A stretch of 44,095 bases of DNA from a virus: the IMG/VR virus record IMGVR_UViG_3300020470_000034, positions 1 through 44,095 of that record. One strand, 5' to 3'. Positions within the stretch are counted from its first letter, which is position 1, and every line of letters starts with the position of its first letter. Position numbers and translations under genes: made by a program. This document shows, piece after piece, positions 6,356-44,095 of the stretch. The notes beneath the pieces are model-generated. The model saw nothing but the letters and a program-made list of their open reading frames with translations. It was not told the origin of the DNA and searched no databases.

Positions 6356-7865
6356 ACTTAAAGAACTTATTAAAAAAGAAATTTTGAAAAAAAGTTTAGA
6401 AGAGTTAAAATTCGGTTCAAAGGCACAATATGATGCTTACAAAAAGAAACACCATATAAAACCTGGTACTGAAGTTTCTGTTGGTGATAAAAAATTCAAA
6501 GAAAAAGGTAAAAAGAAAGAAAAAATGGTACGAAACGCAGCTGGGGATATGGTCCCTGCAAGTTCAGTTGCAGGTCATCCTGATTTTAAATCAGCTGCTG
6601 AGAAATCAGGTAAACCACATCCAGGTGAAAGAGACCCATCAGTTAGAAAGAGTAGAGAAAAAGGTGGTGACGATTCAGGTGGTCCTTCTTATGCAAATGT
6701 ACCAAAAGGTGCAAAATCTTCTAAACAAGCTAAACTTATGAAAAAGAATGATAGTGTTGCAAAAAAAATGTTCTCCTACTTCTCAACTTCAAGTGATTTG
6801 GTGAAGTATGGTGATTCTGATGATATAGGTGAATTTATGAATAAAATTCCTGATATGGGGCAAGATTTTGAAAAAGCTGATGAGTTGTTAAACCTTGTAA
6901 GAGATAATGAACAAGCTATGCGTAGTGACGATGAAGATGTAATAGATGACTATAAAAAAGGAATCCTAAAAATACTAAATACACCAGGTAAAGGTGGAAG
7001 TGGTAAATCAGGAAAAGATATAGAAAAACAATCAATGAAAGCTGCTGATGATGCAAATGCTAAAATGGATAGAGCTGAAAAAGCTCAAGAACTTAAAAAT
7101 GACATTTTACGAATAAAAGCTGGCAATCAAGGTTGGGATGACATTGCTAAGTCAAAAGAAGATGCTATAAAAGTTCTTCAAGGTAAGATAAAAAAACTTC
7201 AAAGTGAATCCATTAAAGAATCCAAAAAAAGAAGATACACTGTAAAAGAAGTTAGAATGTGGATGAAAAAATTAGAAGAGAATCGTTATAAGAAAGTATA
7301 CAATTCAGACGCTCGTAGAGTGGCTTGGTTAGCTAACAATAATTTATCGGAAGATTATGAATCAATGCCAATATCAATGAGAAAAAAATGGTCAAAAGCC
7401 GCATATGGTAGAGAAAGATATTTGGCTAAAGAATTTTTGAAATCTAAATTAGATCAATTAAAGGAACAACTTGAAGAACAAAAGTTAAAAGAATCTATTA
7501 AAAAAATCGTTTTTAGAATGTTAAACGAAGGTGGTCCAGGAAGTGGTCCTCATAAAGATGATGAAGATAATCCATTTGATAAAGAACCAACAGATGATGA
7601 ACTTGCAGATATTGAAAAAGAATTTGAAGGTGTTAAAAAAGAAGGTAAACTAAATGAAACTTTACCAGCACTAGCTAAAGAGTATACACAATATCAAAAG
7701 GCAGAAAAATTATATATACAATCTATTAGAAAATTGGCTATGAAAGCTGGTAGGGTTGAAAAGGTGTATGATAAACAAATAATGCATTCCCTAAAAGTTT
7801 TTCTTGGTAAGGGTATGAATCAGTTTCAAAATGCAGTTAAAGATGTTTTAGATAAATTACAATAA
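6336..7865 (+). CDS. Large putative capsid-targeted protein, disordered and helical
   Basis: 509 residues from GTG 6336, seven bases after GGAG and matching the DNA start of the gene at 1231; an ATG at 6315 lies upstream of the ribosome-binding site. The long leader MKLTKSKLKELIKKEILKK is followed by a Lys/Gly/Asp-rich disordered region to ~150. Helical segments follow. Near residue 300 is a KKRRYTVKEVRMWMKKLEE region, and ~400 has GGPGSGPHKDDEDNP, a Gly-Pro linker. The C-terminus is a helical bundle. It overlaps the actin-like gene by 20 bases, so they are probably co-translated. Function unknown. Confidence 0.6.
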   Translation: MKLTKSKLKELIKKEILKKSLEELKFGSKAQYDAYKKKHHIKPGTEVSVGDKKFKEKGKKKEKMVRNAAGDMVPASSVAGHPDFKSAAEKSGKPHPGERDPSVRKSREKGGDDSGGPSYANVPKGAKSSKQAKLMKKNDSVAKKMFSYFSTSSDLVKYGDSDDIGEFMNKIPDMGQDFEKADELLNLVRDNEQAMRSDDEDVIDDYKKGILKILNTPGKGGSGKSGKDIEKQSMKAADDANAKMDRAEKAQELKNDILRIKAGNQGWDDIAKSKEDAIKVLQGKIKKLQSESIKESKKRRYTVKEVRMWMKKLEENRYKKVYNSDARRVAWLANNNLSEDYESMPISMRKKWSKAAYGRERYLAKEFLKSKLDQLKEQLEEQKLKESIKKIVFRMLNEGGPGSGPHKDDEDNPFDKEPTDDELADIEKEFEGVKKEGKLNETLPALAKEYTQYQKAEKLYIQSIRKLAMKAGRVEKVYDKQIMHSLKVFLGKGMNQFQNAVKDVLDKLQ

Positions 7866-9415: not shown

Positions 9416-11089
9416 ATGAGTGATTATATAAACGACGCTTTATTAAATGTTGGTCCTGATAAAAAACTAAAAGAAGAAACCAAAGTTCTCGTTGACAAAT
9501 GGGATAAAACTGGCCTGCTAGATGGAATCAATGAAGATTTCGAAAAGTCTGGAATGGCTGTTCTTTTAGAAAATCAGGCAAAACAACTTATTAGTGAAGC
9601 TAATAAAACATCTACAACAGCGAACTCTGAAGAGTGGTCTGGTGTAGCACTTCCATTGGTGCGAAGAATCTTTGCTGACATATCAGCACAAGACTTCGTA
9701 AGTGTACAACCAATGAACTTACCATCTGGTCTAGTATTTTATCTAGATTTTAAATATGGTACAAATGTAGGTAATCGAAGAGATACTGCAGGCGGTGAAT
9801 CTATGTTTGGTAGTACTGGTAAAAATTCACCATTTGGCACAAGTGATACAAACTTTCCATCGAAAGGTTTGTATGGTGCTGGACAATTTGAATATACCGC
9901 TCCAACTGGATCTCACGTAGTAGCAGCAACAAATAATACTTCTGTTGCTTCTTCATCTCTTGCAGACTTGAATTATGATACTGACTTTTCAGCATCTAAT
10001 GCAGGTGTGTTACTTACTTGTAAAATGACTTTAGCTAATTTAAATTCATTATCTGGTTCTGATGACGAAGGTGTTAAAGGTTGGTCTTTCGATACTCACA
10101 CTGGAAGATCTCTTGGAACTGACTACGAAATAGTACCACAGTTTACAGAAAAAACTGGTAATGTTTATAAATTTGTTATCAAGTCGTTAACAATGGGTAC
10201 AGCTACGAAGTTCTATTTAGCTTCATCAGCTGATATTAACCTAAACTACTTGAAACAACCAACTGCTACTTCAAGGGGTGATTTTGAGGATGGTAACTAT
10301 AACAGTGGAATAACTGAACCAGCTACTAACTTAAACATACCTGAAGTTAACCTTGAGTTGAAGTCAAGCACAATTGTTGCTAAAACTCGTAAGTTGAAAG
10401 CCGTATGGACACCTGAGCTAGCTCAAGACTTGAACGCCTATCATAGTGTAGACGCTGAAGCTGAGTTAACTTCTGTGTTATCTGAATACATCTCAATGGA
10501 AATCGATTTAGAAATCCTTGATATGTTAATCTCAGATGCTCCAACTAAAGAGTATTGGTCAGCTAGAGTTGGATATGATTGGAATGGTTCATCATTTGCT
10601 GACGGACTACATTCAAGTAATGCATTGGCTTACACAAAGTCTGCTTGGTATGAAACACTACTTCAAAAAGTACAAAAAGTATCAAACAAAATACACCAAT
10701 TAACCTTAAGAGGTGGTGCTAACTTTGTTGTTTGTTCACCAACAGTTGCTACAATCTTGGAATCTATTCCTGGATACGCAGCAGCTACAGATGGTAATCA
10801 ATCTAACTTTGCAGCAGGTGTTAAGAAGATTGGTGCTTTAGCTAACAGATGGAGTGTTTATAAAAATCCATATATGACTGAAAATACAATGTTGGTCGGA
10901 TTCAGAGGTCAAAACTTCCTTGAAACTGGTGCGGTTTACGCTCCTTATGTTCCATTGATTATGACACCTCTAGTTTATGATCCTTCTAACTTCACTCCAA
11001 GAAAAGGTGTGATGACAAGATACGCTAAGAAAATGGTTAGACCAGAGTTCTATGGTAAAATCTTCGTTCACGGATTGGAGACAGTATAA
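9416..11089 (+). CDS. 23: Major capsid protein (T4 gp23-like)
   Basis: 557 residues. The hallmark is the N-terminal region LLENQAKQLISEANK (a gp23 propeptide-type segment) and the conserved VRRIFADISAQDFVSVQPM, PSGLVFYLDFKYG and C-terminal VRPEFYGKIFVHGLETV. HK97-fold hexamer subunit; T4 gp23 is cleaved after residue 65, and a similar removal of the first ~65-75 residues is likely here. SD TAGGAGA lies eight bases upstream. Codon use is richer in C-ending and CGT codons than in the hypothetical genes, consistent with high expression. It is followed by a strong terminator. Confidence 0.93.
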   Translation: MSDYINDALLNVGPDKKLKEETKVLVDKWDKTGLLDGINEDFEKSGMAVLLENQAKQLISEANKTSTTANSEEWSGVALPLVRRIFADISAQDFVSVQPMNLPSGLVFYLDFKYGTNVGNRRDTAGGESMFGSTGKNSPFGTSDTNFPSKGLYGAGQFEYTAPTGSHVVAATNNTSVASSSLADLNYDTDFSASNAGVLLTCKMTLANLNSLSGSDDEGVKGWSFDTHTGRSLGTDYEIVPQFTEKTGNVYKFVIKSLTMGTATKFYLASSADINLNYLKQPTATSRGDFEDGNYNSGITEPATNLNIPEVNLELKSSTIVAKTRKLKAVWTPELAQDLNAYHSVDAEAELTSVLSEYISMEIDLEILDMLISDAPTKEYWSARVGYDWNGSSFADGLHSSNALAYTKSAWYETLLQKVQKVSNKIHQLTLRGGANFVVCSPTVATILESIPGYAAATDGNQSNFAAGVKKIGALANRWSVYKNPYMTENTMLVGFRGQNFLETGAVYAPYVPLIMTPLVYDPSNFTPRKGVMTRYAKKMVRPEFYGKIFVHGLETV

Positions 11090-11226: not shown

Positions 11227-12435
11227 ATGGCGAACAATAAATTTAAATATGTTTATTCAGATCCAATTGGAGCATATAGTTCAGGTGGTACACCATATTC
11301 TTTATATGATGGTGATGCCGATTTTAAATCTGATATAATCACTACTACTAAATGGGTAGCTAAAAGATTAGGGTTTCCTGTAATGCAAGTGGAGATTCCA
11401 AGTGGTTCAATCTATGCTTGTTTTGAAGAAGCTGTGTGTGAATATTCCCAACATATGAATAGTTTTAATATGAAGAATTGGTTTTGGAACTCTTATGGGA
11501 ATGATACGGCTGTAAGTAGTTCTATATCAGGAAGTCCATCAACTTTTCAACCACAACATAAAAATATGGGAATAACATCAATGTTATCAGAAAATTATGG
11601 TGAAGCGGTTGGTATTGGTGGTGATACAAATTTATATAGTGCTTCTTTAACTTTAGTTTCTGGTAAACAAGATTACAATTTACAATCAGCGTTTAGTGCT
11701 TCTGTTGCTAGTAATACAGCTTTAAGTGCTTCTGTAGATAAAAGAATAGTAATACAAAGAGTATTTAATAATCCACCAGCAGCTATAACAAAATTTTGGG
11801 ATCCCTATGTTGGTACATATGATCAAAGAACAATGTTAGATCAATTTGGATTTGCTTCATATTCACCAGCAACTACAATGATATTAAGACCATTATATTA
11901 TGATTTGTTAAGAACTCAAGCAGTTGAATCAAGTGATTATTTACGAAAATCAAATTATTCATTTCAAATAAATAATAATAATGTTAAACTATTTCCTATA
12001 CCAGCTAATACTGATGCTGGAAATAAAGTTTGGTTTCATTATTATATAAAAGATGATCTAAATAAAACAACACAAACTTATTCAAAAGATAAGGTATCAG
12101 ATCCATCAAATGCTCCATATAAATTTATAAATTATTATAGTATAAATTCTGTTGGAAGACAATGGATAAAAAAATATACATTAGCTTTATCAAAAGAATT
12201 ACTTGGTATTGTTAGAAGTAAATATCAATCTATGCCAATACCAAACGGTGATGTAACTTTGGATGGTGAAGCATTAAAAGCGGAAGGTAGAGAAGAAAAG
12301 TCTTTATTACTTGATGAACTTAAAGAATTTTTAGATCAAATGACATTGACAGAAAAATCAAGACAAGAACAAGAGCAGGCTGAAGCTACTCAACAAGTAT
12401 TAAATAAAGCTCCATTAGAAATTTATATAGGTTAG
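11227..12435 (+). CDS. Neck/head-completion protein, probably gp13-like
   Basis: 402 residues, SD GGAG seven bases upstream. The N-terminal part has the pattern SGSIYACFEEAVCEYSQHMN, an amphipathic helix typical of portal-proximal connector proteins. The region ~85-290 is Ser/Asn-rich beta, and a C-terminal helix (LLLDELKEFLDQMTLTEKS) follows. Its position right after gp23 and ahead of gp14/gp15-like genes fits gp13. Family assignment is from context and pattern only; a different connector type is possible. Confidence 0.55.
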   Translation: MANNKFKYVYSDPIGAYSSGGTPYSLYDGDADFKSDIITTTKWVAKRLGFPVMQVEIPSGSIYACFEEAVCEYSQHMNSFNMKNWFWNSYGNDTAVSSSISGSPSTFQPQHKNMGITSMLSENYGEAVGIGGDTNLYSASLTLVSGKQDYNLQSAFSASVASNTALSASVDKRIVIQRVFNNPPAAITKFWDPYVGTYDQRTMLDQFGFASYSPATTMILRPLYYDLLRTQAVESSDYLRKSNYSFQINNNNVKLFPIPANTDAGNKVWFHYYIKDDLNKTTQTYSKDKVSDPSNAPYKFINYYSINSVGRQWIKKYTLALSKELLGIVRSKYQSMPIPNGDVTLDGEALKAEGREEKSLLLDELKEFLDQMTLTEKSRQEQEQAEATQQVLNKAPLEIYIG

Positions 12436-12445
12436 GAGAAAATCA

Positions 12446-12925
12446 TTGGCAATTTATAAACCATTTTTTGTACCCAAAGGTGAAGTTGACTTATTTGACG
12501 CTTTTAATGAAGAATTAATTGATGAGATAATAGGACAATCTGTTGATATATACAAAGTTTCCACAGATGAAACCAACACTAATATGTATGGTGAAGCCAA
12601 AGGTGGTGGACAAAAAACATTCGAAAAAGGATTTAGAGTTAATTGTCTTATTATGTTTAATGAACCAGAAAATCTTATGCAAGATGAATTGGGAACTGAT
12701 TATGACGCTAATGTAGAAATATATTTTCATAGAACAGCATTATCTGGTTCTGATTTTTATCCAGAGATAGGTGATGTAGTTGATTGGAACGAACACTATT
12801 TTGAAATAGGAAGTGTTACAGAACCACAATTAGTAGCAGGTTCACCTGATTATAGACATCAAGTAAAGGCATTAGCAAGTAGAATTAGATTATCGTCTAT
12901 TAATTTTGATGAGAGGATTAGATAA
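12446..12925 (+). CDS. Neck / head-tail connector protein (gp14-position)
   Basis: 159 residues from TTG 12446 with AGGAGA upstream. A beta-rich domain carries GFRVNCLIMFNEPENLMQDE, the NVEIYFHRTAL strand and IGDVVDWNEHYFEIGSVTE, a pattern seen in T4-type neck proteins of marine phages. Predicted role: seals the portal after packaging and joins head to tail. Shorter than T4 gp14 (256 residues), so homology to gp14 itself is uncertain. Ends exactly at the next start (ATAATG). Confidence 0.5.
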   Translation: MAIYKPFFVPKGEVDLFDAFNEELIDEIIGQSVDIYKVSTDETNTNMYGEAKGGGQKTFEKGFRVNCLIMFNEPENLMQDELGTDYDANVEIYFHRTALSGSDFYPEIGDVVDWNEHYFEIGSVTEPQLVAGSPDYRHQVKALASRIRLSSINFDERIR

Positions 12926-13296
12926 TGTCTGTAAAACCATTAAAAGTAGGACAAACATTTATAGTTGAAAGAGATAGAAAATCTTTTTCAAAAAAAGAAA
13001 AACCTAAAAATAATAAAGAAACAAAACACTATTACTATGAAGATAAAAGTGGTAATGTAGATGTTCAAGATTTAATGAAGGTTTTATTAAATAAAATAGA
13101 TTCACTAACATCGAAAAATCATATTACGGAAGATATTTATGGTGATAAAAAAATGAAAGCAGTTGATGTTGATTTTAAAAGAGATATTCATTTAACTAAA
13201 TTAGATGATAGTAAAATTACTTCAAAAGAAATAAAGGGTAAAGTAAATAATAAACTAGATAAATTAAAAGCATTGAGAAAACGAAATGGCAGTTAA
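12925..13296 (+). CDS. Protein sharing its C-terminal module with the membrane-anchored gene at 4547
   Basis: 123 residues. The N-terminus is basic (VERDRKSFSKKEKPKNNKET) and apparently disordered. A helix (DVQDLMKVLLNKIDSL) follows, then the C-terminal module beginning ITEDIYGDKKMKAVDVDF and ending DKLKALRK. This module aligns to the C-terminal end of the 125-residue protein at 4547-4924 (18/40 identical, no gaps). No membrane segment here. It overlaps the next gene by 11 bases. Function unknown; by position, neck-associated. Confidence 0.6.
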   Translation: MSVKPLKVGQTFIVERDRKSFSKKEKPKNNKETKHYYYEDKSGNVDVQDLMKVLLNKIDSLTSKNHITEDIYGDKKMKAVDVDFKRDIHLTKLDDSKITSKEIKGKVNNKLDKLKALRKRNGS

Positions 13297-14131
13297 ACCA
13301 ATAACAAATCCAAACCCAACACCACCAAGTAAACTTGATAGATCTAAACAAATATCTAATAAGGATTTAAATGTAAGGAGTATATCCAATAAAGAAACTG
13401 TTGTTGTTCCTGGTAAAGATGCAACTAAAAATTTTCATGTAGTATTAAAAGATTTGGATACGGCTATTTTATCACATATCCAAAATGTGATGAGAATTAA
13501 AGTTAGAGAAAATGGTGAAATGGTTGATGTTCCAATTATGTATGCGAATCAAGAAAGATGGGCTAATATAAAAAGAAATGGGGTTATAAGAGATAAAAAT
13601 GGTTCATTACTATTACCATTAATGTCTTTTAGAAGAGTTAATGTTGAGTTTAATGATGAATTACCATCATATAAACAAGATGTTACTGGAGATTTTGTAC
13701 AAGTGGTTAGAACATCTGGTTGGTCTAAAGCTAATCAATACGACGCCTTTGGTGTTCAAACTGGAATAAAGCCAATAAAAGAAAATATAGTAACAGGAGT
13801 TCCTCAATATGTAAATGCTACTTATGATTTCATAGTGTATTCCAGTTTTATTACTCAAATGAATACTATAGTTGAATCATTTGTACAACAACATCAAACT
13901 TATTGGGGTGATAATACAAGTTATAGATTTCATTGTTTAGTAGAGGGTGGTATGGCAGATGCTACTGAGATGGATGTAGCTGGTGAAAGAATTGTTAAAA
14001 CTACTTTTTCTGTAATGTTAAAGGGATATTTATTACCAGAAGTTATTGCTAATGTGATACAATCAAAAAGATTTTCTGCTAGAAAAAATATTGTAGGTGG
14101 AAAAATAGTTTTCGGTGAAAAAATAGTATAA
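13286..14131 (+). CDS. 15: Tail sheath stabilizer/completion protein (gp15-like)
   Basis: 281 residues, against 272 in T4 gp15. After a Pro-rich N-terminus, the pattern matches gp15: a VDVPIMYANQERWANI segment (T4: RVPITYASKEHF), then PLMSFRRVNVEFN, VPQYVNATYDFIVYSSFITQ, TIVESFVQQHQTYWG, and a terminal beta region KTTFSVMLKGYLLPEV. gp15 forms the terminal hexamer capping the tail and joins it to the neck. It starts inside the end of the previous gene (overlap 13286-13296). Confidence 0.7.
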   Translation: MAVKPITNPNPTPPSKLDRSKQISNKDLNVRSISNKETVVVPGKDATKNFHVVLKDLDTAILSHIQNVMRIKVRENGEMVDVPIMYANQERWANIKRNGVIRDKNGSLLLPLMSFRRVNVEFNDELPSYKQDVTGDFVQVVRTSGWSKANQYDAFGVQTGIKPIKENIVTGVPQYVNATYDFIVYSSFITQMNTIVESFVQQHQTYWGDNTSYRFHCLVEGGMADATEMDVAGERIVKTTFSVMLKGYLLPEVIANVIQSKRFSARKNIVGGKIVFGEKIV

Positions 14132-14518: not shown

Positions 14519-17272
14519 ATGGCTGAAAGAATCGTAAGCCCAGGTGTATTTACAAATGAGATAGATGCATCTTTTTTACCTGCGGCTGTTAGTGAGATTG
14601 GTGCTGCTATTGTTGGTGTTTGTAATAAAGGACCAGCATTTGTACCAACTGTGGTTGAAAGTTTTACAGACTTTAAAATTCAATTTGGCGAATTGGATAC
14701 AAGTCTATATATGCCGTACGCGGCAAAAAGTTATTTAAAAAATGCAGGTACTGCAACTATTGTGAGAGTTCTTGGTACAAGTGGTATGACAGCAGCTAAA
14801 TATTTAGTATTGAAGTCAGCTGGTACAAATGGACAATATGCAACTGCGTCAATTGGATTAGGACAAACATTTGTAGGAAATACAGCTGGTGCTGTTGGTA
14901 AAGATATAGCATTTACTGGATCTGATGGTAAGACTGTATACAAGTTTGAACCATGGTCTGGTTCAGCTAATGGGTATAATGTAGATGGTCCTGGTAGTTT
15001 TGGAATATCAAATCCAAGTGGGGCTACATACTTTTTCCAATTAGGTAAATTTGCAAATAAAACAGGTGATAATTTAGCGGGAATAATAAATTCTGGTTCA
15101 GCTACACATGGTGTATCTGCTACTCCATCAACGGGTGGTACTGGTGCTACTTTACATTCCACGATAATTTTATCTGCTAGTTTAAAAGGAACTCAATTTG
15201 GTAATGGAACAAAAATTTATACATCAAGTAATACTTTTTATACTACATCTGTTGTACCTGATACAGCTATAAAAGATTTTACTTGGGGTGGTGGTCAAGC
15301 TACAGTTGGTTCTGGAGTTGTTGCGACTATATTCCCAACATCATCTAACTATTCACTTGCATCTGCAACACTTGTAGGGAAAAGTCAAGTAGGTGATTTT
15401 AATATTAGATGGCAAGGTACTGCAGGAACTACATCACCAACGATGTCATTACATAGTTCAAATACAAGTTATATTGAAAATGTATTGTCAAAAGATCCTT
15501 CTTCAACACAAAAAGGATATTTATTCTATGTGTTTAGATCATTTGCAGATAATTTAGCTGCAGGTGCTACATTGTCACTTGATGTTAGAAGTAACTACTA
15601 TGGTGGACAATACGCTTCAGCTAAAACACCATTCATCAATAGTCAACAAATAGGTGGACAAGTAACTAACTTATTTAAAATTGAATCATTGTCTGATGGT
15701 GTAGCTGCTAATTCATCTTGTAAAGTAGCTATATCTAATATTAAGAAAAGTTCAAATGAAGATGTAACTAAATATGGTACATTTGATGTGATTATTAGAA
15801 GTTATGGTGATACTGATAATAAACCACAAGTACTTGAAACATATAGTGGATGTAATTTAGATAAAGATTCACCTAATTTTATAGCTAGGAGAATTGGAGA
15901 TATTAAAGAAACATTTAATACATCAAAAGGTAAAATAGAAGTAAGTGGTGATTATAAAAATAGATCTAAATATGTTAGAGTTTCTGATATAAACTCTCAA
16001 GTTAAGAGTGGAGCAGCTTCACCTTACTTACTACCATTTGGATTTAAGTCTTACCCTTATCCAACTGTTCACGCTGGAAGTGATTCAGCAGTTCCTTTAC
16101 CAATGGTAACAGCTCTTTCTGAAAGTGGAGAGTTTAATAGTAAGATGTTCCATGGTGTAGCTTTTGATAGTTCATCTAAACACGATATCTATCCTTACTT
16201 ATATCCTTCAACAACAACTGCAGCTGGTGGTACTTCATTAGCTGATACTAAAATTAGTAGTTCAAGGTTTGGTTTGGATACCACTGTTGGATTAACTACA
16301 GATTCACCATTAAATACTAAACGATTTATTATGGGATTACATGGAGGATCTGACGGTTGGGATCCAAGAGTAGTTGGTAGTTTAGGTATGGGTAATGGTC
16401 AATTTGGTAACTCTGGTGCTAATCTAAATGATTTCAAAAATGCATTAGCTACCATATCTAATCCAGATGAAACTGATATTAATATGTTAGTGATGCCTGG
16501 AATCAATAAAACAGATCATTCTAAAGTATATAATAAAGCTAAAACTATCGTAGAAGATAGAGCTGATACATTTATGGTTGTTGATCCAGCTGGATATAAT
16601 GGAACACAGACAGACGCTGTAGCAGCAATTGAAACTGAGGATAGTAACTTTATAGCTACATATTATCCATGGGTTAAAATCTTTGATGATGAGAATAATA
16701 CATTTGTATGGGTGCCACCTTCTGTTGTATTACCTGGTGTCATATCATTTACAGATAAAGTATCTCATCCATGGTTTGCTCCAGCAGGTCTAAATAGGGG
16801 TGGATTAACTGAAGCTGTTATGGCTAAAGAAAGATTAACTCAAGCTGAAAGAGATTATCTATATGAAAATAGAGTTAATCCAATTGCAACATTCCCAGGA
16901 CAAGGGGTGTGTGTATGGGGTCAAAAAACTCTACAAGCTAAACCTTCAGCACTTGATAGAATCAATGTAAGAAGACTACTAATTAGATTGAAGAAATTTA
17001 TTGCTTCAACATCTAAATTCCTTGTGTTTGAACAAAACAATCAAGCTACAAGAAATAGATTCTTAAATATTGTAAATCCATTTATGGAACAAGTACAATC
17101 AAAATCTGGATTAACAGCATTTAAGATAGTAGTTGATGAAAGTGTAAACACACCAGATGTTGTTGATAGAAATGAATTGAGAGGTCAAATATTCATTCAA
17201 CCAACAAGAACTGCTGAGTTTATAGTATTGGATTTCGTAGTGATGCCAACTGGTGCTACATTTCCAGAGTAA
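14519..17272 (+). CDS. 18: Contractile tail sheath protein (gp18-like), enlarged
   Basis: 917 residues against ~659 in T4 gp18. The N-terminus IVSPGVFTNEIDASFLP and the DFKIQFGELDTSLYMPYAAK segment are sheath hallmarks. The C-terminal sheath core has KVSHPWFAPAGLNRGGL, RINVRRLLIRLKKFIAS and FVVMPTGATFPE. The extra length lies in Ser/Thr/Gly-rich surface-exposed regions around residues 100-370. The protein surrounds the tail tube and contracts at infection. A terminator follows. Confidence 0.93.
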   Translation: MAERIVSPGVFTNEIDASFLPAAVSEIGAAIVGVCNKGPAFVPTVVESFTDFKIQFGELDTSLYMPYAAKSYLKNAGTATIVRVLGTSGMTAAKYLVLKSAGTNGQYATASIGLGQTFVGNTAGAVGKDIAFTGSDGKTVYKFEPWSGSANGYNVDGPGSFGISNPSGATYFFQLGKFANKTGDNLAGIINSGSATHGVSATPSTGGTGATLHSTIILSASLKGTQFGNGTKIYTSSNTFYTTSVVPDTAIKDFTWGGGQATVGSGVVATIFPTSSNYSLASATLVGKSQVGDFNIRWQGTAGTTSPTMSLHSSNTSYIENVLSKDPSSTQKGYLFYVFRSFADNLAAGATLSLDVRSNYYGGQYASAKTPFINSQQIGGQVTNLFKIESLSDGVAANSSCKVAISNIKKSSNEDVTKYGTFDVIIRSYGDTDNKPQVLETYSGCNLDKDSPNFIARRIGDIKETFNTSKGKIEVSGDYKNRSKYVRVSDINSQVKSGAASPYLLPFGFKSYPYPTVHAGSDSAVPLPMVTALSESGEFNSKMFHGVAFDSSSKHDIYPYLYPSTTTAAGGTSLADTKISSSRFGLDTTVGLTTDSPLNTKRFIMGLHGGSDGWDPRVVGSLGMGNGQFGNSGANLNDFKNALATISNPDETDINMLVMPGINKTDHSKVYNKAKTIVEDRADTFMVVDPAGYNGTQTDAVAAIETEDSNFIATYYPWVKIFDDENNTFVWVPPSVVLPGVISFTDKVSHPWFAPAGLNRGGLTEAVMAKERLTQAERDYLYENRVNPIATFPGQGVCVWGQKTLQAKPSALDRINVRRLLIRLKKFIASTSKFLVFEQNNQATRNRFLNIVNPFMEQVQSKSGLTAFKIVVDESVNTPDVVDRNELRGQIFIQPTRTAEFIVLDFVVMPTGATFPE

Positions 17273-36709: not shown

Positions 36710-37828
36710 ATGTCTAAAGATGATTTAGCAAAAGTTATACAAGGTGAATTGAATAAACAATTCAAACATCAGAAAGTAGCATACTTTCTTGATGGTGATG
36801 AAAATCCTACGGATGTAACGGATTTCATTTCTACAGGTTCAACAATGTTAGATATTGCTATTTCCAATAGACCAAATGGTGGAGTTGCCGTAGGTAAAAT
36901 CACAGAGTTAAATGGTTTAGAAGGTAGTGGTAAGTCTTTGATAGGTTCTCATTTGTTAGCTTCAACACAGAAGAAAGATGGTATAGCAGTTTATATAGAT
37001 ACGGAATCAGCAGTATCTCAAGAGTTCTTGAGAGCTATTGGTGTCGATACTACAAAAATGTTATATGTTCATTTGGAAACTGTTGAAGAGATATTTGATA
37101 CTATTGAAACAATTGTTACGAAGATTCGTGAGTCTAATAAAGATAAGTTAGTAACTATTCTTGTTGATTCATTAGCAGCTGCTTCTACGAAAGTAGAGAT
37201 GGATGCTGACTTTGATAAAGATGGTTGGGCTACTGCGAAAGCTATTATCATAAGTAAAGCTATGAGAAAGATTACTCAAATGATAGCTAGACAAAAAGTC
37301 GCATTGGTTTTCACAAATCAATTACGACAAAAGTTAGGTGTTATGTTTGGAGATCCTTGGACTACTTCAGGTGGTAAGGCTCTTCCATTCCATTCATCAA
37401 CTCGTGTTAGATTCAAAAACGCTGGACAAATCAAAGATACTAGTAAAAAAAATACCATCGGTATTAAAATAAAAGGACAAGTAATCAAAAATAGATTAGG
37501 TCCCCCAATGAGAACTGCAGAGTTTCCATTATATTTTGATACAGGTATTGCTGACTACGATAGCTGGTTAACAGTTATGAAAGAACATAAGATTTGTAAA
37601 GTTGGTGGTTCTTGGTACACATTATCACAATATGATACCGAAACTGGTGAATTAATTAAAGATCATAAATTTCAATCAAAAGATTTTGAAGAATTGATGG
37701 ATACTAATTCTGAATTGAGGGAGTTTTGTTATCAACAAATCTGTGAAGCTTGTATTCTTAAATATGATTCAAAAGAATTAGGTATCGATGATGTAGAAGA
37801 AACTGATGAGGTAGTTGATGAGCTTTAA
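36710..37828 (+). CDS. uvsX: UvsX recombinase (RecA family)
   Basis: 372 residues. Walker A GLEGSGKS at residues ~69-76, ETESAVSQE after it, Walker B TILVDSLAAAS at ~149-159, loop region LGVMFGDPWTTSGGKALP, and an acidic C-terminus. Forms filaments on ssDNA with gp32 and drives strand exchange for recombination-dependent replication. It sits after the gp32 gene with an SD AGGAG. Length is similar to T4 UvsX (391). Confidence 0.92.
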   Translation: MSKDDLAKVIQGELNKQFKHQKVAYFLDGDENPTDVTDFISTGSTMLDIAISNRPNGGVAVGKITELNGLEGSGKSLIGSHLLASTQKKDGIAVYIDTESAVSQEFLRAIGVDTTKMLYVHLETVEEIFDTIETIVTKIRESNKDKLVTILVDSLAAASTKVEMDADFDKDGWATAKAIIISKAMRKITQMIARQKVALVFTNQLRQKLGVMFGDPWTTSGGKALPFHSSTRVRFKNAGQIKDTSKKNTIGIKIKGQVIKNRLGPPMRTAEFPLYFDTGIADYDSWLTVMKEHKICKVGGSWYTLSQYDTETGELIKDHKFQSKDFEELMDTNSELREFCYQQICEACILKYDSKELGIDDVEETDEVVDEL

Positions 37829-38885: not shown

Positions 38886-39538
38886 CAAATTTAACACAAC
38901 TTAATATATTTCCAGTAAAAATATTTACAAAGGTGCTTCTTGATAGTGAGAGTAATAGACTGGAGATTATAGATGAGTGTTATAGGTTGAGAGATAAAAA
39001 TAATAATGGTATTAAAAGATCTAATTTTGGTGGATGGCATAGTGAAAATAATTTAATTCAAAATAAAGTATTTGATAAGTTACATAATAATATTATTGAA
39101 ACTATAAATAAAGATATTAATGTTAATTATTATAAAAATTTAAATAATAAAGTATTTACTAAAGAATTTATATCTTCATCTTGGGTGACTATAAATAATA
39201 ATTCTGATTTTAATATGCCTCACACTCATGAAGGAAGTTGGCTAAGTGGAGTATTTTATATTAAATTACCTGATAATTATAAACAAGCTGGAGATATTTT
39301 ATTTCAAGACCCAATCCAACAAAGAAAACATGAAATATGGTATCATAAAATGGAAAATGGTAATGGTAGAAGCTTTACCCCAGAACTTGGTAGATTAGTT
39401 TTATTTCCATCTTGGTTATGGCATCAAGTTACTGGTAATAATACAAATCAAGATAGAATATCATTTTCTTTTAATATAGAATATCTACCACCTTACGAAT
39501 TAAATACATACACAGGAAAGAAAGGAGAATATACATAA
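38882..39538 (+). CDS. Putative 2OG-Fe(II) oxygenase (small PF13759-type)
   Basis: 218 residues. The pattern SSWVTINNNSDFNMPHTHEG and WLSGVFYIKLPDNYKQAGDI, then ELGRLVLFPSWLWHQVTG and DRISFSFNIE matches the TIGR02466/2OG-FeII_Oxy_5 family: H-x-H for the metal, a distal His in WLWH and the Arg before the ISF strand. Common in T4-like marine phages; substrate unknown. It sits between the replication nuclease and helicase, overlapping both. Confidence 0.75.
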   Translation: MTNLTQLNIFPVKIFTKVLLDSESNRLEIIDECYRLRDKNNNGIKRSNFGGWHSENNLIQNKVFDKLHNNIIETINKDINVNYYKNLNNKVFTKEFISSSWVTINNNSDFNMPHTHEGSWLSGVFYIKLPDNYKQAGDILFQDPIQQRKHEIWYHKMENGNGRSFTPELGRLVLFPSWLWHQVTGNNTNQDRISFSFNIEYLPPYELNTYTGKKGEYT

Positions 39539-40902
39539 TGTCTAATAGTAGGTTACAAGAGTTTGGACATAATTTTCAAATAAAATCAATAGTATGTCTA
39601 ATGACTAAACCTAATTTTATTGAACAAGTAATTGATATTTTAGATGAGAGTCAATATGATAGTGACGCTTTAAAATGGGTTGTAAAGGAATGTAAGAAAT
39701 ATTTTAATGAATATAAAAAGCCAATTACACTTGATGTATTTAAAGTTAAGGTAAATGATGTTACAAATGATGTATTAAAAACAACCATAGTAGAAACACT
39801 AAAAGAGGTTTACAGATATTTAGAAGCACCTGATTTAGATTATGTTCAAGATAAATGTGTCGATTTTTTTAAAAATCAAACATTAAAAAATGCAATTGTA
39901 GAATCTGTTGATATATTAGAATCAAATGGTGATTATGAAAAAATAAAAAATATTATAGATGATGCTATGAAAGCTGGTACGGAAAGAAACATAGGACACG
40001 AATATGCAGATGAAACTGCGATAGAATTACGATATTCTGAAATGGCTCGTAATACTGTTGAAACACCATGGGATGTGATTAATGATTTAACACAAGGTGG
40101 TTTAGCTGGTGGTGAACTTGGTGTGATTGTTGCACCTGCTGGTATAGGTAAGACTTGGATATTATGTGCACTTGGAGCTGGTGCGATGAAACGAGGAACT
40201 AATGTTGTACACTATACTTTAGAGTTAAATGAATCTTATGTTGGATTAAGATATGATTCAGTATTAACAGGACTTGCAAATCAAAATCTAAAATATCATA
40301 TAGATGAAGTGAAGACTGCAGTTGACAAGGTTGATGGGGAATTGGTAGTAAAGTATTTTCCAACTAAAACTGCATCAGTTCATACTCTTGGAGCTCATTT
40401 ACAAAAGTTAAAAACTTTAGGTAAAGATTTTGATATGGTGGTTGTGGATTATGGTGACATATTAAGAGATACGAGTAATAGTAGGGAAGTAAGACATGCA
40501 CTTGGAAACATATATGAAGATCTTCGTGGGATGGCTGGTGAGTTTGATGTTCCAATATGGACTGCTTCACAAGCTAATCGTTCAGCATTAGATGAAGATG
40601 TGATTGAAGCTACAAAAGTGTCTGAATCATATCAAAAAGTTATGACAGCAGATTTCGTAATGTCATTAAGTAGAAAAGTGGAAGATAAGATTGCTAACAC
40701 TGGTAGATTCCATGTTATTAAAAACAGATTTGGACCTGATGGTATTACTTATCCAGCTAAGGTAAATACTAATACAGGTGCAGTTGATATCTATGAGGCA
40801 AATACTGTTGATGGTAAAGAACAACAACAAAAGATTAATAATAGAGAAAATATTATGAAAAAGATGTTAGCTAATAAATATGAAGATTTGATGAATGATT
40901 AG
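39538..40902 (+). CDS. 41: Replicative DNA helicase (gp41/DnaB-type)
   Basis: 454 residues. It has an N-terminal helical domain with KWVVKECKKYFNEYKKP, a linker, Walker A GVIVAPAGIGKTWI (~195-208), LELNESYVGLRYD, Walker B FDMVVVDYGDIL (~298-309), ASQANRSALDE and a C-terminal RFHVIKNRFGPDGITYP with the arginine-finger region. Hexameric 5'-3' helicase that also loads primase. Start AATG overlaps the previous stop; the end overlaps the next gene by eight bases. Confidence 0.88.
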   Translation: MSNSRLQEFGHNFQIKSIVCLMTKPNFIEQVIDILDESQYDSDALKWVVKECKKYFNEYKKPITLDVFKVKVNDVTNDVLKTTIVETLKEVYRYLEAPDLDYVQDKCVDFFKNQTLKNAIVESVDILESNGDYEKIKNIIDDAMKAGTERNIGHEYADETAIELRYSEMARNTVETPWDVINDLTQGGLAGGELGVIVAPAGIGKTWILCALGAGAMKRGTNVVHYTLELNESYVGLRYDSVLTGLANQNLKYHIDEVKTAVDKVDGELVVKYFPTKTASVHTLGAHLQKLKTLGKDFDMVVVDYGDILRDTSNSREVRHALGNIYEDLRGMAGEFDVPIWTASQANRSALDEDVIEATKVSESYQKVMTADFVMSLSRKVEDKIANTGRFHVIKNRFGPDGITYPAKVNTNTGAVDIYEANTVDGKEQQQKINNRENIMKKMLANKYEDLMND

Positions 40903-41326
40903 TAAACAAGATGTTATAGATTTTTTAAAGAATGATTATTATTGTAGAATAAAACCATCATTAATTCATGGTGTAGGAGTTTTTGCAATAAAAGATATCC
41001 CTAGAGGTGTAAATCCATTTATTCCTTTTGAGGATAGTGTTAATTTTAACTTTCAATTAGATGAATTGTCAGATGTTAATACTAATATAGTTAATGTTTT
41101 TGAGTCTAGATATTTTTCTCCAAGTGATGGAGTTAATATTGTTTTAAATAAGTGTAATACCACACATTATGTTGACTATATTAATCATTCTCTTAAACCA
41201 AATGTTGTTTATTTTTATGAAAATGGTAAATATAATTGGGAAACATTAGTTGATATAAAAGAAGGTGAAGAGTTGACACATAATTATAATAATGTTGAGT
41301 TAAATAGTGAGGGATATTGTAAGTGA
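40895..41326 (+). CDS. SET-domain protein
   Basis: 143 residues. PSLIHGVGVFAIKDIPRG (~21-38) is the SET N-motif (GxGvFA...i..G). YINHSLKPNVVYF (~98-110) matches the NHSxxPN motif. TLVDIKEGEELTHNY (~118-132) matches the terminal I..GEEL...Y motif. The tyrosine in THNY corresponds to the usual catalytic or SAM-binding residue. Unusually small, with only a short post-SET region. Could methylate a lysine on a host or phage protein. Overlaps gp41 and the ASCH gene, so the unit is translationally coupled. Confidence 0.75.
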   Translation: MISKQDVIDFLKNDYYCRIKPSLIHGVGVFAIKDIPRGVNPFIPFEDSVNFNFQLDELSDVNTNIVNVFESRYFSPSDGVNIVLNKCNTTHYVDYINHSLKPNVVYFYENGKYNWETLVDIKEGEELTHNYNNVELNSEGYCK

Positions 41327-41592
41327 AAATATTACATTTAGTTTTAAAAAGAAAATATTTTGAAAGAATACATGAGGGAACAAAAACAACAGAGTATAGG
41401 GATTTTACACCATATTGGAAAAAAAGAATAGAAGGTAAACACTATACTCACATAAAATTTCAATTAGGATATACTAAAAATCCACCAACAATGTTAGTAG
41501 AAGTAAAAGATAGAAATGTGGTTGAATATAAGGATGACTTAGCATATGCGTTTGATTTAGGAAAGATAATGGAGGTAAATAACTATGAGTGA
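41323..41592 (+). CDS. ASCH/PUA-like domain protein
   Basis: 89 residues from GTG 41323 in a GTGA overlap. LHLVLKRKYFERIHEGTKTT followed by EYRDFTPYWKKRI and HIKFQLGYTKNPPTMLVEV fits an ASCH domain (G.K..EyR...W...). ASCH proteins bind RNA or modified nucleotides and some are nucleases. Immediately upstream of a Mom-like gene, it could read or handle modified DNA or RNA; that is inference. Confidence 0.7.
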   Translation: MKILHLVLKRKYFERIHEGTKTTEYRDFTPYWKKRIEGKHYTHIKFQLGYTKNPPTMLVEVKDRNVVEYKDDLAYAFDLGKIMEVNNYE

Positions 41593-41845
41593 TTTAAAAA
41601 GATTCCAAGAGTTTGTCAAATGGTTTGAAGAACTTGTATTTGGAACTAAAAAAACATCAAAAACAGAATGTAAAGTGGATATATGTTGTGGAGGTGATTG
41701 TCACACAGACATAAAACCAAAAAGAGCTAGAGGTAAAAAGGGTAGGTATTTAGCTGATGACCCCAAAACAAAAAATTATAATGAAGCTTATGTTGGTGGT
41801 AAAGCACCAAAGGATTTATTAGGATTAAAAAAGAGGAAAAAGTAA
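41585..41845 (+). CDS. Small Cys-cluster basic protein
   Basis: 86 residues. It has a helical start, then CKVDICCGGDCHTD with four Cys within 11 residues, and a basic region KPKRARGKKGRYLADDPKTK ending in NEAYVGGKAPKDL and a lysine tail. Similar small RARGKKGR...NEAY.GGKAP proteins occur in marine T4-like phages; function unknown. A metal-binding, nucleic-acid-binding role is plausible. The stop overlaps the following ATG (TAATG). Confidence 0.6.
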   Translation: MSDLKRFQEFVKWFEELVFGTKKTSKTECKVDICCGGDCHTDIKPKRARGKKGRYLADDPKTKNYNEAYVGGKAPKDLLGLKKRKK

Positions 41846-41937
41846 TGAATGAATATTTTACAAAATATCCAACACACATTGAAGTACCAGACGATTATTG
41901 GGTATCTACACACGATGTGGAGTATATTGAAGGTTAG
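41845..41937 (+). CDS. Short leader ORF overlapping the mom-like start
   Basis: 30 residues (MNEYFTKYPTHIEVPDDYW and 11 more). ATG 41845 overlaps the preceding TAA and has GAGG eight bases upstream. The stop (41935-41937) lies just inside the Mom-like gene, whose candidate start TTG is at 41927. An overlapping upstream ORF that could gate mom translation recalls the com-mom overlap of phage Mu, though Com itself is a zinc-finger protein and this is not similar. Confidence 0.5.
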   Translation: MNEYFTKYPTHIEVPDDYWVSTHDVEYIEG

Positions 41938-42553
41938 AGATTTTATAGTAGAACCTGTACCTCGTAGTGCAATACAATCGTTTGTACATAAATGGCATTA
42001 TTCACATGATACAAATGGAGTTCAACAAACACAATGTTTTGCATTGTTTGATGGTACTAGAATGATAGGAGCAATGATATATGCTTTACCATCTATGAAA
42101 TCAACAGCTGCAAAATACAATCCTGATAACCCTTTAAGATGTTGGGAGTTACGAAGATTGTGTTGTATAGATGATACACCAACAAACACAGAAAGTTATT
42201 TTATAGGGCAAACTTTGAGATGGATAAGACAAAACACGGATATAGAAGTTATTGTATCTTATGCTGATTTAGAACAAGGTCATGAAGGTGTTATTTATAA
42301 AGCTAGTAATTTTCACTTATTAGGACAAAGTGGTGGTGGTAGAAATCTTATGGTTGATGGTAAAAAGTTTCACGCTAGATCTATGAATCAAAAAGAGAAA
42401 CCATATGGTAGAGATTTAAAACGGAGATGGAATAACAAAGATGGACATAGTTTTTGGGAGTCAAAACAAGACATGTATTTTGTAGATACAAAACCAAAGA
42501 ATATTTATGTTTACTATTTGAATAAAAAAATAAAGAAGAAATTGTTGAATTGA
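41927..42553 (+). CDS. mom: Mom-like DNA-modification enzyme (GNAT fold)
   Basis: 208 residues from TTG 41927 (GGAG four bases upstream), which begins at the conserved KVRDFIVEPVPRS; ATG 41915 and 41849 are alternatives with poorer sites. The Mom family pattern is KWHYSHDTNG, ALFDGTRMIGAMIYALPSM, CWELRRLCCIDDTPTNTESY, QTLRWIRQNTDIEVIVSYAD and EQGHEGVIYKASNFHLLGQ. Mu Mom converts adenine in DNA to N6-carbamoylmethyladenine and blocks restriction. The product here may protect phage DNA. Next gene has its own promoter-like motif. Confidence 0.75.
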   Translation: MKVRDFIVEPVPRSAIQSFVHKWHYSHDTNGVQQTQCFALFDGTRMIGAMIYALPSMKSTAAKYNPDNPLRCWELRRLCCIDDTPTNTESYFIGQTLRWIRQNTDIEVIVSYADLEQGHEGVIYKASNFHLLGQSGGGRNLMVDGKKFHARSMNQKEKPYGRDLKRRWNNKDGHSFWESKQDMYFVDTKPKNIYVYYLNKKIKKKLLN

Positions 42554-42617: not shown

Positions 42618-44095
42618 ATGGATTATAAAAAATTTATGTTATCTGAGAATTTTATAGAGGGTTACAAGAGAAAAAGAGCTCCTTTTGGTTTTAATGGTCT
42701 CGGTGAATTAGTTTATATGAGAACCTATTCAAGAATTAAAGATGATGGAAAAAACGAAATGTGGTGGGAAACTTGTCAACGAGTGGTTGAAGGTACTTAC
42801 AACATGCAGAAAAAATGGATAGAATCACATCATTTAGGGTGGAACGCGTGGCAAGCACAACGAAGTGCACAAGAGATGTACGATAGAATGTTTAATATGA
42901 AATTCTTGCCACCTGGCCGAGGTCTTTGGGCAATGGGAACTCCAATAACAGAAGAACGAGGTTTATACGCCGCCCTTAACAATTGTGCATTTGTATCAAC
43001 ATCAAATCTAAAAGAAGATTTATCTAAACCATTTACATTCTTAATGGATGCTTCAATGGTTGGAGTTGGTGTAGGATTTGATACTAAAGGTGCAGAACAA
43101 TTCGTAGTTAGAGGACCAAAAGAAGATAGAGAAAGAGAAACATATGTTATACCTGATACGAGAGAAGGTTGGGTTGAATCTGTAAGACGATTATTGGATA
43201 GTTATTTTCTCGGTATAACAGGTGTTGATTTTGATTATTCCTTAATTAGAGCAGAAGGTGAACCTATTAAAGGTTTTGGTGGTGTATCAAGTGGATATAA
43301 ACCACTGGAAGAAGTACATAAATCTGTTTCAGAATGTTTAGATAAAAATATAGGTTCACCAATATCAGTAACTACAATTGTAGATATAATGAACTTGATT
43401 GGTAAATGTGTTGTAGCGGGTAATGTTAGAAGAACTGCTGAGATTGTGTTTGGAGATCCACAATCTGAAGAATATATAAATTTAAAAAATTATAAAAAGA
43501 ATCCTCATAGAGAAATGTATGGTTGGACATCTAACAATTCAGTATTTGCTGAGTTAGGACAAGACTATACAGATATAGCAGAAAGAATTAAAGACAATGG
43601 AGAACCTGGTCTTGCTTGGTTAGATAATATGAGACACTATTCAAGAATGAAAAATGGTGGTGATAACAAAGACCATAGAGTAAGTGGTGGTAATCCTTGT
43701 CTTGAACAATCATTAGAATCATATGAGTTATGTTGTTTAGTAGAAACATTTCCACATAACCACAAAGATTTAGATGATTATTTGACAACATTGAAATATG
43801 CTTATCTATATGCTAAGACAGTAACACTTGGAAAAACACATTGGCCTGAAACTAATCGTGTGATGTTGAGAAACAGAAGAATTGGATGTAGTGTAAGTGG
43901 TATCGCACAATTCATTACTCATCGAGGACAAGGTGAGTTGAGAACTTGGTTAGAAGATGGGTATAATAAATTACAAGAGTATGATAAAAAATATTCAGAT
44001 TGGTTTGCTGTACCTCGTAGTATAAAAACTACATCTGTAAAACCAAGTGGAACTGTATCATTATTGGCGGGCTCCACCCCAGGACTTCATTATCC
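42618..44095 (+). CDS. nrdJ: Adenosylcobalamin-dependent (class II) ribonucleotide reductase, partial
   Basis: 492 codons read before the window edge; the family's usual length is ~740. SD AGGAG is ten bases upstream. Clear RTPR-type motifs: MKFLPPGRGLWAMGT, NNCAFVST (C123, one redox Cys), FLMDASMVGVGVGFDTKG, YVIPDTREGWVESV, EGEPIKGFGGVSSG, NLIGKCVVAGNVRRTAEIVF, and NPCLEQ with N359, C361 and E363 as radical-site residues, then KPSGTVSLLAGSTPGLHYP. Reduces ribonucleoside triphosphates using adenosylcobalamin. Monomeric class, unlike T4's class Ia NrdAB. Confidence 0.92.
   Translation, partial: MDYKKFMLSENFIEGYKRKRAPFGFNGLGELVYMRTYSRIKDDGKNEMWWETCQRVVEGTYNMQKKWIESHHLGWNAWQAQRSAQEMYDRMFNMKFLPPGRGLWAMGTPITEERGLYAALNNCAFVSTSNLKEDLSKPFTFLMDASMVGVGVGFDTKGAEQFVVRGPKEDRERETYVIPDTREGWVESVRRLLDSYFLGITGVDFDYSLIRAEGEPIKGFGGVSSGYKPLEEVHKSVSECLDKNIGSPISVTTIVDIMNLIGKCVVAGNVRRTAEIVFGDPQSEEYINLKNYKKNPHREMYGWTSNNSVFAELGQDYTDIAERIKDNGEPGLAWLDNMRHYSRMKNGGDNKDHRVSGGNPCLEQSLESYELCCLVETFPHNHKDLDDYLTTLKYAYLYAKTVTLGKTHWPETNRVMLRNRRIGCSVSGIAQFITHRGQGELRTWLEDGYNKLQEYDKKYSDWFAVPRSIKTTSVKPSGTVSLLAGSTPGLHY

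Follow-up and report, generated by a model that had tools for sequence, protein, structure and literature searches.

Whether a T4-type phage can rely on a Mom-type modification of adenine, as a strategy different from the glucosylated hydroxymethylcytosine of T4, is the question raised by an open reading frame (ORF) ending at position 42553 of an uncultured ocean phage sequence. The stretch of DNA analyzed here, hereafter the window, comprises positions 1–44,095 of the IMG/VR record IMGVR_UViG_3300020470_000034 (44,095 nucleotides).

Phage Represented by the Window

PHROG matches in the window included the T4-type core genes, namely those encoding the gp23-type major capsid protein (9416–11089, + strand; PHROG 138, E = 1e-72), gp18/gp19-type sheath and tube proteins, gp32, a UvsX-like recombinase (36710–37828, + strand) and the gp41-type DnaB-like replicative helicase (39538–40902, + strand; PHROG 19, E = 2e-69). 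The window also contained a 5'-3' exonuclease and a ribonucleotide reductase (Nrd; 42618–44093, + strand; PHROG 367, E = 1e-94) truncated by the contig end, and a gp43-type polymerase was present in the relative G001. The window gp23 shared 54% identity with those of Flavobacterium immuto phages and 53% with that of Microcystis phage Mel-JY01, while the window UvsX was 27% identical to that of T4. Thus, the preliminary description of the phage as T4-type stands by its core genes but, judging from these identities, is appropriate in the broad sense only, and the phage represents a deep branch. No Mom gene was found in the immuto phages, Mel-JY01 or RM378. The gp23 affinity suggested a Bacteroidota host. 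This candidate was not supported, because Shine-Dalgarno-like sites were found for 74% of the window ORFs of at least 100 aa (12% for random positions), and Bacteroidota seldom use such sites.

Identity of the Window Gene

The product of the window ORF matched Pfam PF25680 with an E-value of 2.3e-37 (129.1 bits against a cut-off of 27.1, covering positions 1–193 of the 202-position profile), PHROG 1384 "Mom-like DNA modification protein" with an E-value of 1.9e-55, and, in phmmer, Mom of phage Mu (8bv8) with an E-value of 4.6e-10. The Mom signature described earlier as strong (KWHYSHD, WELRRL and VSYADLEQGHEGVIYKASNF) was recovered in this ORF, which is read from the + strand, and the family matches lie far above chance. 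The AlphaFold model, for which 46 aligned sequences were used as the input, had a pLDDT of 89.2 and a pTM of 0.80. The best PDB match of this model in Foldseek was 8bv8 (E = 4.8e-13, TM 0.72), followed by generic GNATs (E = 5.5e-6). As the fold has hundreds of acetyltransferase matches, the protein could be a GNAT acetyltransferase that acts on a protein or a small molecule in host takeover and merely resembles Mom. We regard this as very improbable, since Mom ranks first in both the sequence and the structure comparisons, well ahead of other GNATs (E-values of 5e-13 vs. 5.5e-6), the specific family models match, and the gene is located in a replication block.

8bv8 was deposited as "phage Mu protein Mom inactive mutant S124A." The sequence at the mutated site is NSEARAIS in 8bv8 and NSESRAIS in the Mu genome, and the mutated serine is therefore the one aligned with S90 of the window protein. 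A serine occupied this position in all of the 123 homologs aligned, in which H24, Y25, E74, R77, N87, S90, G121, Y124 and N128 were invariant (123/123). The dN/dS of the window gene against seven relatives ranged from 0.07 to 0.18, showing that the gene is under purifying selection. Altogether, the sequence, the predicted structure, the catalytic serine and the synteny described below firmly support the window ORF as encoding a Mom-family protein, and the gene is a real and very probably functional mom.

The longest mechanical ORF at this locus starts from the ATG at 41849 and extends to 42553 on the + strand (234 aa). We dropped this start in favor of the TTG at 41927, the one given in the preliminary description, which yields an A-type Mom of 208 aa (41927–42553, + strand). 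The TTG is preferred because (i) a GGAG Shine-Dalgarno-like site (41919–41922, + strand) is located 4 nt upstream, (ii) the N-termini of the homologs begin at the equivalent K-V-x-[DEN]-F point, (iii) a stop codon lies immediately 5' of the equivalent point in the relative L004, and (iv) the upstream region contains a micro-ORF in another frame. This micro-ORF of 30 aa, MNEYFTKYPTHIEVPDDYWVSTHDVEYIEG (41845–41937, + strand), overlaps the 5' end of mom, and residues 1–26 of the 234-aa ORF result from reading it out of frame. A homolog, MDYWDSEYPTHIEVPEDYWVCSHNVEYINED, was found in L012. The window micro-ORF begins at TAATG, after an 86-aa ORF. A supposed insertion within mom of L012 was resolved into the micro-ORF and, inserted 5' of mom, an ORF judged cupin-like by eye.

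Genes Surrounding mom

Three genes lie between the gp41 helicase gene and mom in the window, encoding a SET-domain protein (40895–41326, + strand; PF00856, E = 7e-11), an ASCH-like protein (41323–41592, + strand; PHROG 625, E = 2.7e-19, with Pfam ASCH below the cut-off) and a basic protein of 86 aa (41585–41845, + strand). The relatives in IMG/VR kept Mom between gp41 and Nrd, which are the conserved 5' and 3' landmarks of the locus, respectively. The genes gained or lost around Mom in these relatives were those for the SET-domain, ASCH-like, 86-aa, cupin-like and 2OG-oxygenase proteins; the ASCH-like protein is a recurrent neighbor, and the SET-domain and 86-aa proteins are variable ones. In a second group of relatives, Mom was found between the exonuclease and gp41. 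The occurrence of a SET-domain protein (40895–41326) within a phage replication block is itself worth recording. In two loci (L005:3239–5209 and L006:5324–7294), the gp41 gene was split into two ORFs in an insertion-like manner, possibly by an intron or a homing element.

No Com homolog was found in the window. The 86-aa protein was considered as a Com-like translational regulator and rejected, as its cysteine cluster is seen in the window only and is missing from the orthologs.

Multiple Mom Genes in Relatives

We analyzed 29 contigs (G000–G028), in which G000 is the window and the rest were fetched for encoding Mom or a DruA-like protein (the latter for G025 and G026). G001 is syntenic with the window, with the capsid gene at 7015 and an A-type Mom gene at 40682, and possesses two further PF25680 genes at 52217 and 93364. 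Among the 29 contigs, 19 encoded two or more Mom proteins scoring above the cut-off and 10 encoded three or more, counts that include one gene truncated by a contig end. In G008, four Mom paralogs reside within 3.1 kb (L109:1816–4904). At least two Mom genes were also found in approximately 38 of the 80 fetched loci with a Mom alignment, although the loci were fetched because they have Mom and these proportions are no estimate of prevalence.

In the Mom phylogeny, the short A-type proteins (including that of the window) and the long B-type proteins were separated from each other. A second tree divided the B type into B1 and B2, with weak support for the deep nodes. A or A-like, B1-like and B2-like copies were each found in G001, G009, G010, G013, G020, G024 and G026, the placement of the G026 copies being uncertain. 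The gp43-type polymerases of the contigs with A, B1 and B2 were 51–60% identical to that of G001, and we therefore regard these contigs as one broad lineage. A, B1 and B2 of the relatives form a conserved set of three anciently diverged Mom paralogs.

We searched 50,697 deposited phage records by tblastn (E ≤ 0.05). The A-type query matched 295 places in 294 records, and the B-type query matched 326 places in 326 records. Each query recovered the single gene of the other type, with the B-type query meeting ICP1, DSL-LC03 and EniLVp02 at the A-type places; the place-by-place comparison covered a part of the listed records. Since Mom was essentially always single in these records and both queries met at the same gene, multiple Mom genes appear essentially absent from the deposited phages within the sensitivity of tblastn. 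We found no description of several Mom paralogs in one phage in the titles and abstracts of the open literature.

The window contig ends 1.5 kb 3' of mom, and the phage represented by the window may, by extrapolation from its relatives, possess B1 and B2 as well. Finding one Mom gene in a T4-type phage adds only modestly to the database content; the greater novelty and interest lie in the set of A, B1 and B2 seen in the relatives. The three-paralog set predicts several target contexts or several modifications per genome, and the paralogs are natural variants with which the determinants of the sequence specificity and chemistry of Mom can be located.

DruA-Like Proteins and Nucleases beside Mom

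A gene encoding a DruA-like protein adjoins Mom in G006 (L010:9415–9999) and G001 (94059–94649); the stretches containing both genes are L010:9415–10630 and L033:13340–14649 (= G001 93340–94649). The G006 protein matched Pfam DruA with an E-value of 2e-10 and the G001 protein with an E-value of 1e-5, which is below the cut-off. A weak match to PHROG 1384 was found, and a profile comparison between the DruA-like proteins and Mom gave a probability of 97%. The structural model had a pLDDT of 79, and its top match, 8bv8 (E = 3e-5), was barely ahead of other GNATs. Thus, the DruA-like proteins are predicted to have a Mom/GNAT-like fold, which provides a testable clue to the defence protein DruA. 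The idea of an obligate partner of Mom was discarded, as Mom was nearby in few of the 38 loci with a DruA-like protein. No match to the DruA-like protein was found in the deposited phages at E ≤ 1e-5.

Other genes were also observed near Mom. The second Mom gene of G001 (Mom2) is flanked by DUF1599, "nucleotide modification associated domain 1," and a PD-(D/E)XK nuclease (L031:11618–13801 = G001 51618–53801), and DUF1599 was near a Mom gene in six of the seven contigs having this domain. In L033, a UvdE UV-endonuclease gene (12334–13353) lies just 5' of Mom3 and a 4HBT thioesterase-like gene (15042–15404) shortly 3'.

Jumbo phages are known to encode Mom, usually as a fusion with nuclease domains (PMC7824862). 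Following what was proposed for these Mom-REase fusions (PMC7824862), the window Mom could supply the modification activity of a phage-encoded restriction-modification cassette directed against host or rival DNA. Mom genes do occur beside nucleases: an annotated type II restriction endonuclease overlaps mom in cyanophage DSL-LC03 (L016:4436–5606), an overlapping HNH-like ORF (L109:1317–1829, by eye) precedes the four Mom genes of L109, an HNH endonuclease is annotated at Mom in Geobacillus phage PK3.6, and the PD-(D/E)XK protein is encoded 3' of Mom2 in G001. The last protein, however, matches exonuclease PHROGs, and no restriction nuclease was found fused or adjacent to the window Mom, which is a single-domain protein with gp41, SET-domain, ASCH-like, 86-aa and Nrd neighbors. 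We thus consider a role in such a cassette improbable.

Modification Route of T4 and Mom in T4-Type Phages

The T4 pathway was searched for with PF00303 (thymidylate synthase and dCMP hydroxymethylase) and PF11440 (alpha-glucosyltransferase). Neither family was detected in the window or the contigs of the relatives searched, including the 113-kb G001, all of which are fragments; T4, as the positive control, matched both. This result supports, but with fragmentary contigs falls short of proving, the absence of the hydroxymethylcytosine/glucosylation route. A Mom-type route in place of glucosylated hydroxymethylcytosine, as was suggested for this phage, is plausible.

Single Mom genes are annotated in the T4-type isolates EniLVp02 and AS-zj (Straboviridae), DSL-LC03 (Kyanoviridae) and cyanophage S-SSM7. 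At the annotation level, Mom had thus been recorded from T4-type phages before, and the window is not the first case. Mom need not exclude the route of T4, because AS-zj and EniLVp02 possess, besides Mom, a PF00303-family gene for thymidylate synthase or dCMP hydroxymethylase.

Proposed Function

We consider it likely that the window gene encodes a functional Mom-family enzyme of the GNAT fold, which would modify the N6 of adenines in phage DNA against host restriction, with the paralogs dividing the work. The use of acetyl-CoA and iron has been reported for Mu Mom. By analogy with Mu Mom, the window Mom would most likely use an acyl-CoA-type donor. A carbamoylmethyl or related group would be transferred to the N6 of adenines in phage DNA, and the genome modified in this way would be shielded against host restriction endonucleases. 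The DNA substrate, donor, product and division of labor are postulated in this proposal, as are the adenine target and the protection, which are taken from Mu: its Mom produces N6-carbamoylmethyl-adenine (ncm6A; PMC8281217), and the modification gives restriction resistance (PMC6483171). The position of mom within the replication block (gp32-UvsX-exonuclease-gp41-mom-Nrd) makes its co-expression with the replisome probable. A, B1 and B2 would probably have separate tasks, the simplest division being one by sequence context.

The identity between the window Mom and Mu Mom (8bv8) is only ~22%, so that the two may not share the donor, the target sequence or the product. A Mom-fold enzyme with altered chemistry, acting on another DNA base or transferring another group to adenine, would fit this low identity, the long separate branches of the A type and Mu, and the coexistence of diverged paralogs in one genome, which would be redundant if all of them had identical reactions and sites. 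Nevertheless, the core residues, including the equivalent of the catalytic serine, are conserved without exception between Mu and the window, and we regard altered chemistry as the less likely reading. Extending the proposed adenine modification to the lineage, we tentatively suggest a toolkit of three (up to four) specialized Moms that differ in specificity or transferred group and modify complementary sets of adenines, perhaps with the DruA-like protein as a further arm. If true, the toolkit amounts to combinatorial DNA hypermodification, with essentially no counterpart among the deposited phages that were searched.

Comparison with Known Systems

The window Mom shares the fold, the catalytic serine and the invariant H-Y and Y/N core with Mu Mom (8bv8, PF25680). 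Unlike Mu Mom, from which it differs at most positions (~22% identity), it lacks the Mu-type N-terminal extension and is encoded in a T4-like replication block. In the com-mom operon of Mu, the gene for the zinc-finger protein Com overlaps the start of mom, whereas the window has no Com gene.

The single A-type Moms of ICP1, Enterococcus Efquatrovirus, RaK2, EniLVp02, DSL-LC03 and S-SSM7 are closer to the window Mom, with ~40–44% identity and a position on the same side of the tree. In contrast to the lineage of the window, these phages have one Mom per genome and other neighborhoods. Likewise, the B-type Mom of Polaribacter phage P12002L is 54% identical to the B1 paralog of G001, but the genome of this phage is small (48.7 kb) and encodes a single Mom. 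The jumbo-phage Mom-REase fusions (PMC7824862) also place a Mom domain in large phages, while the window Mom is neither fused to a nuclease nor adjacent to one. Finally, the glucosylated hydroxymethylcytosine of T4 shares its presumed purpose, restriction evasion, with the modification proposed for the window phage, and the two differ in both the base and the enzymes.
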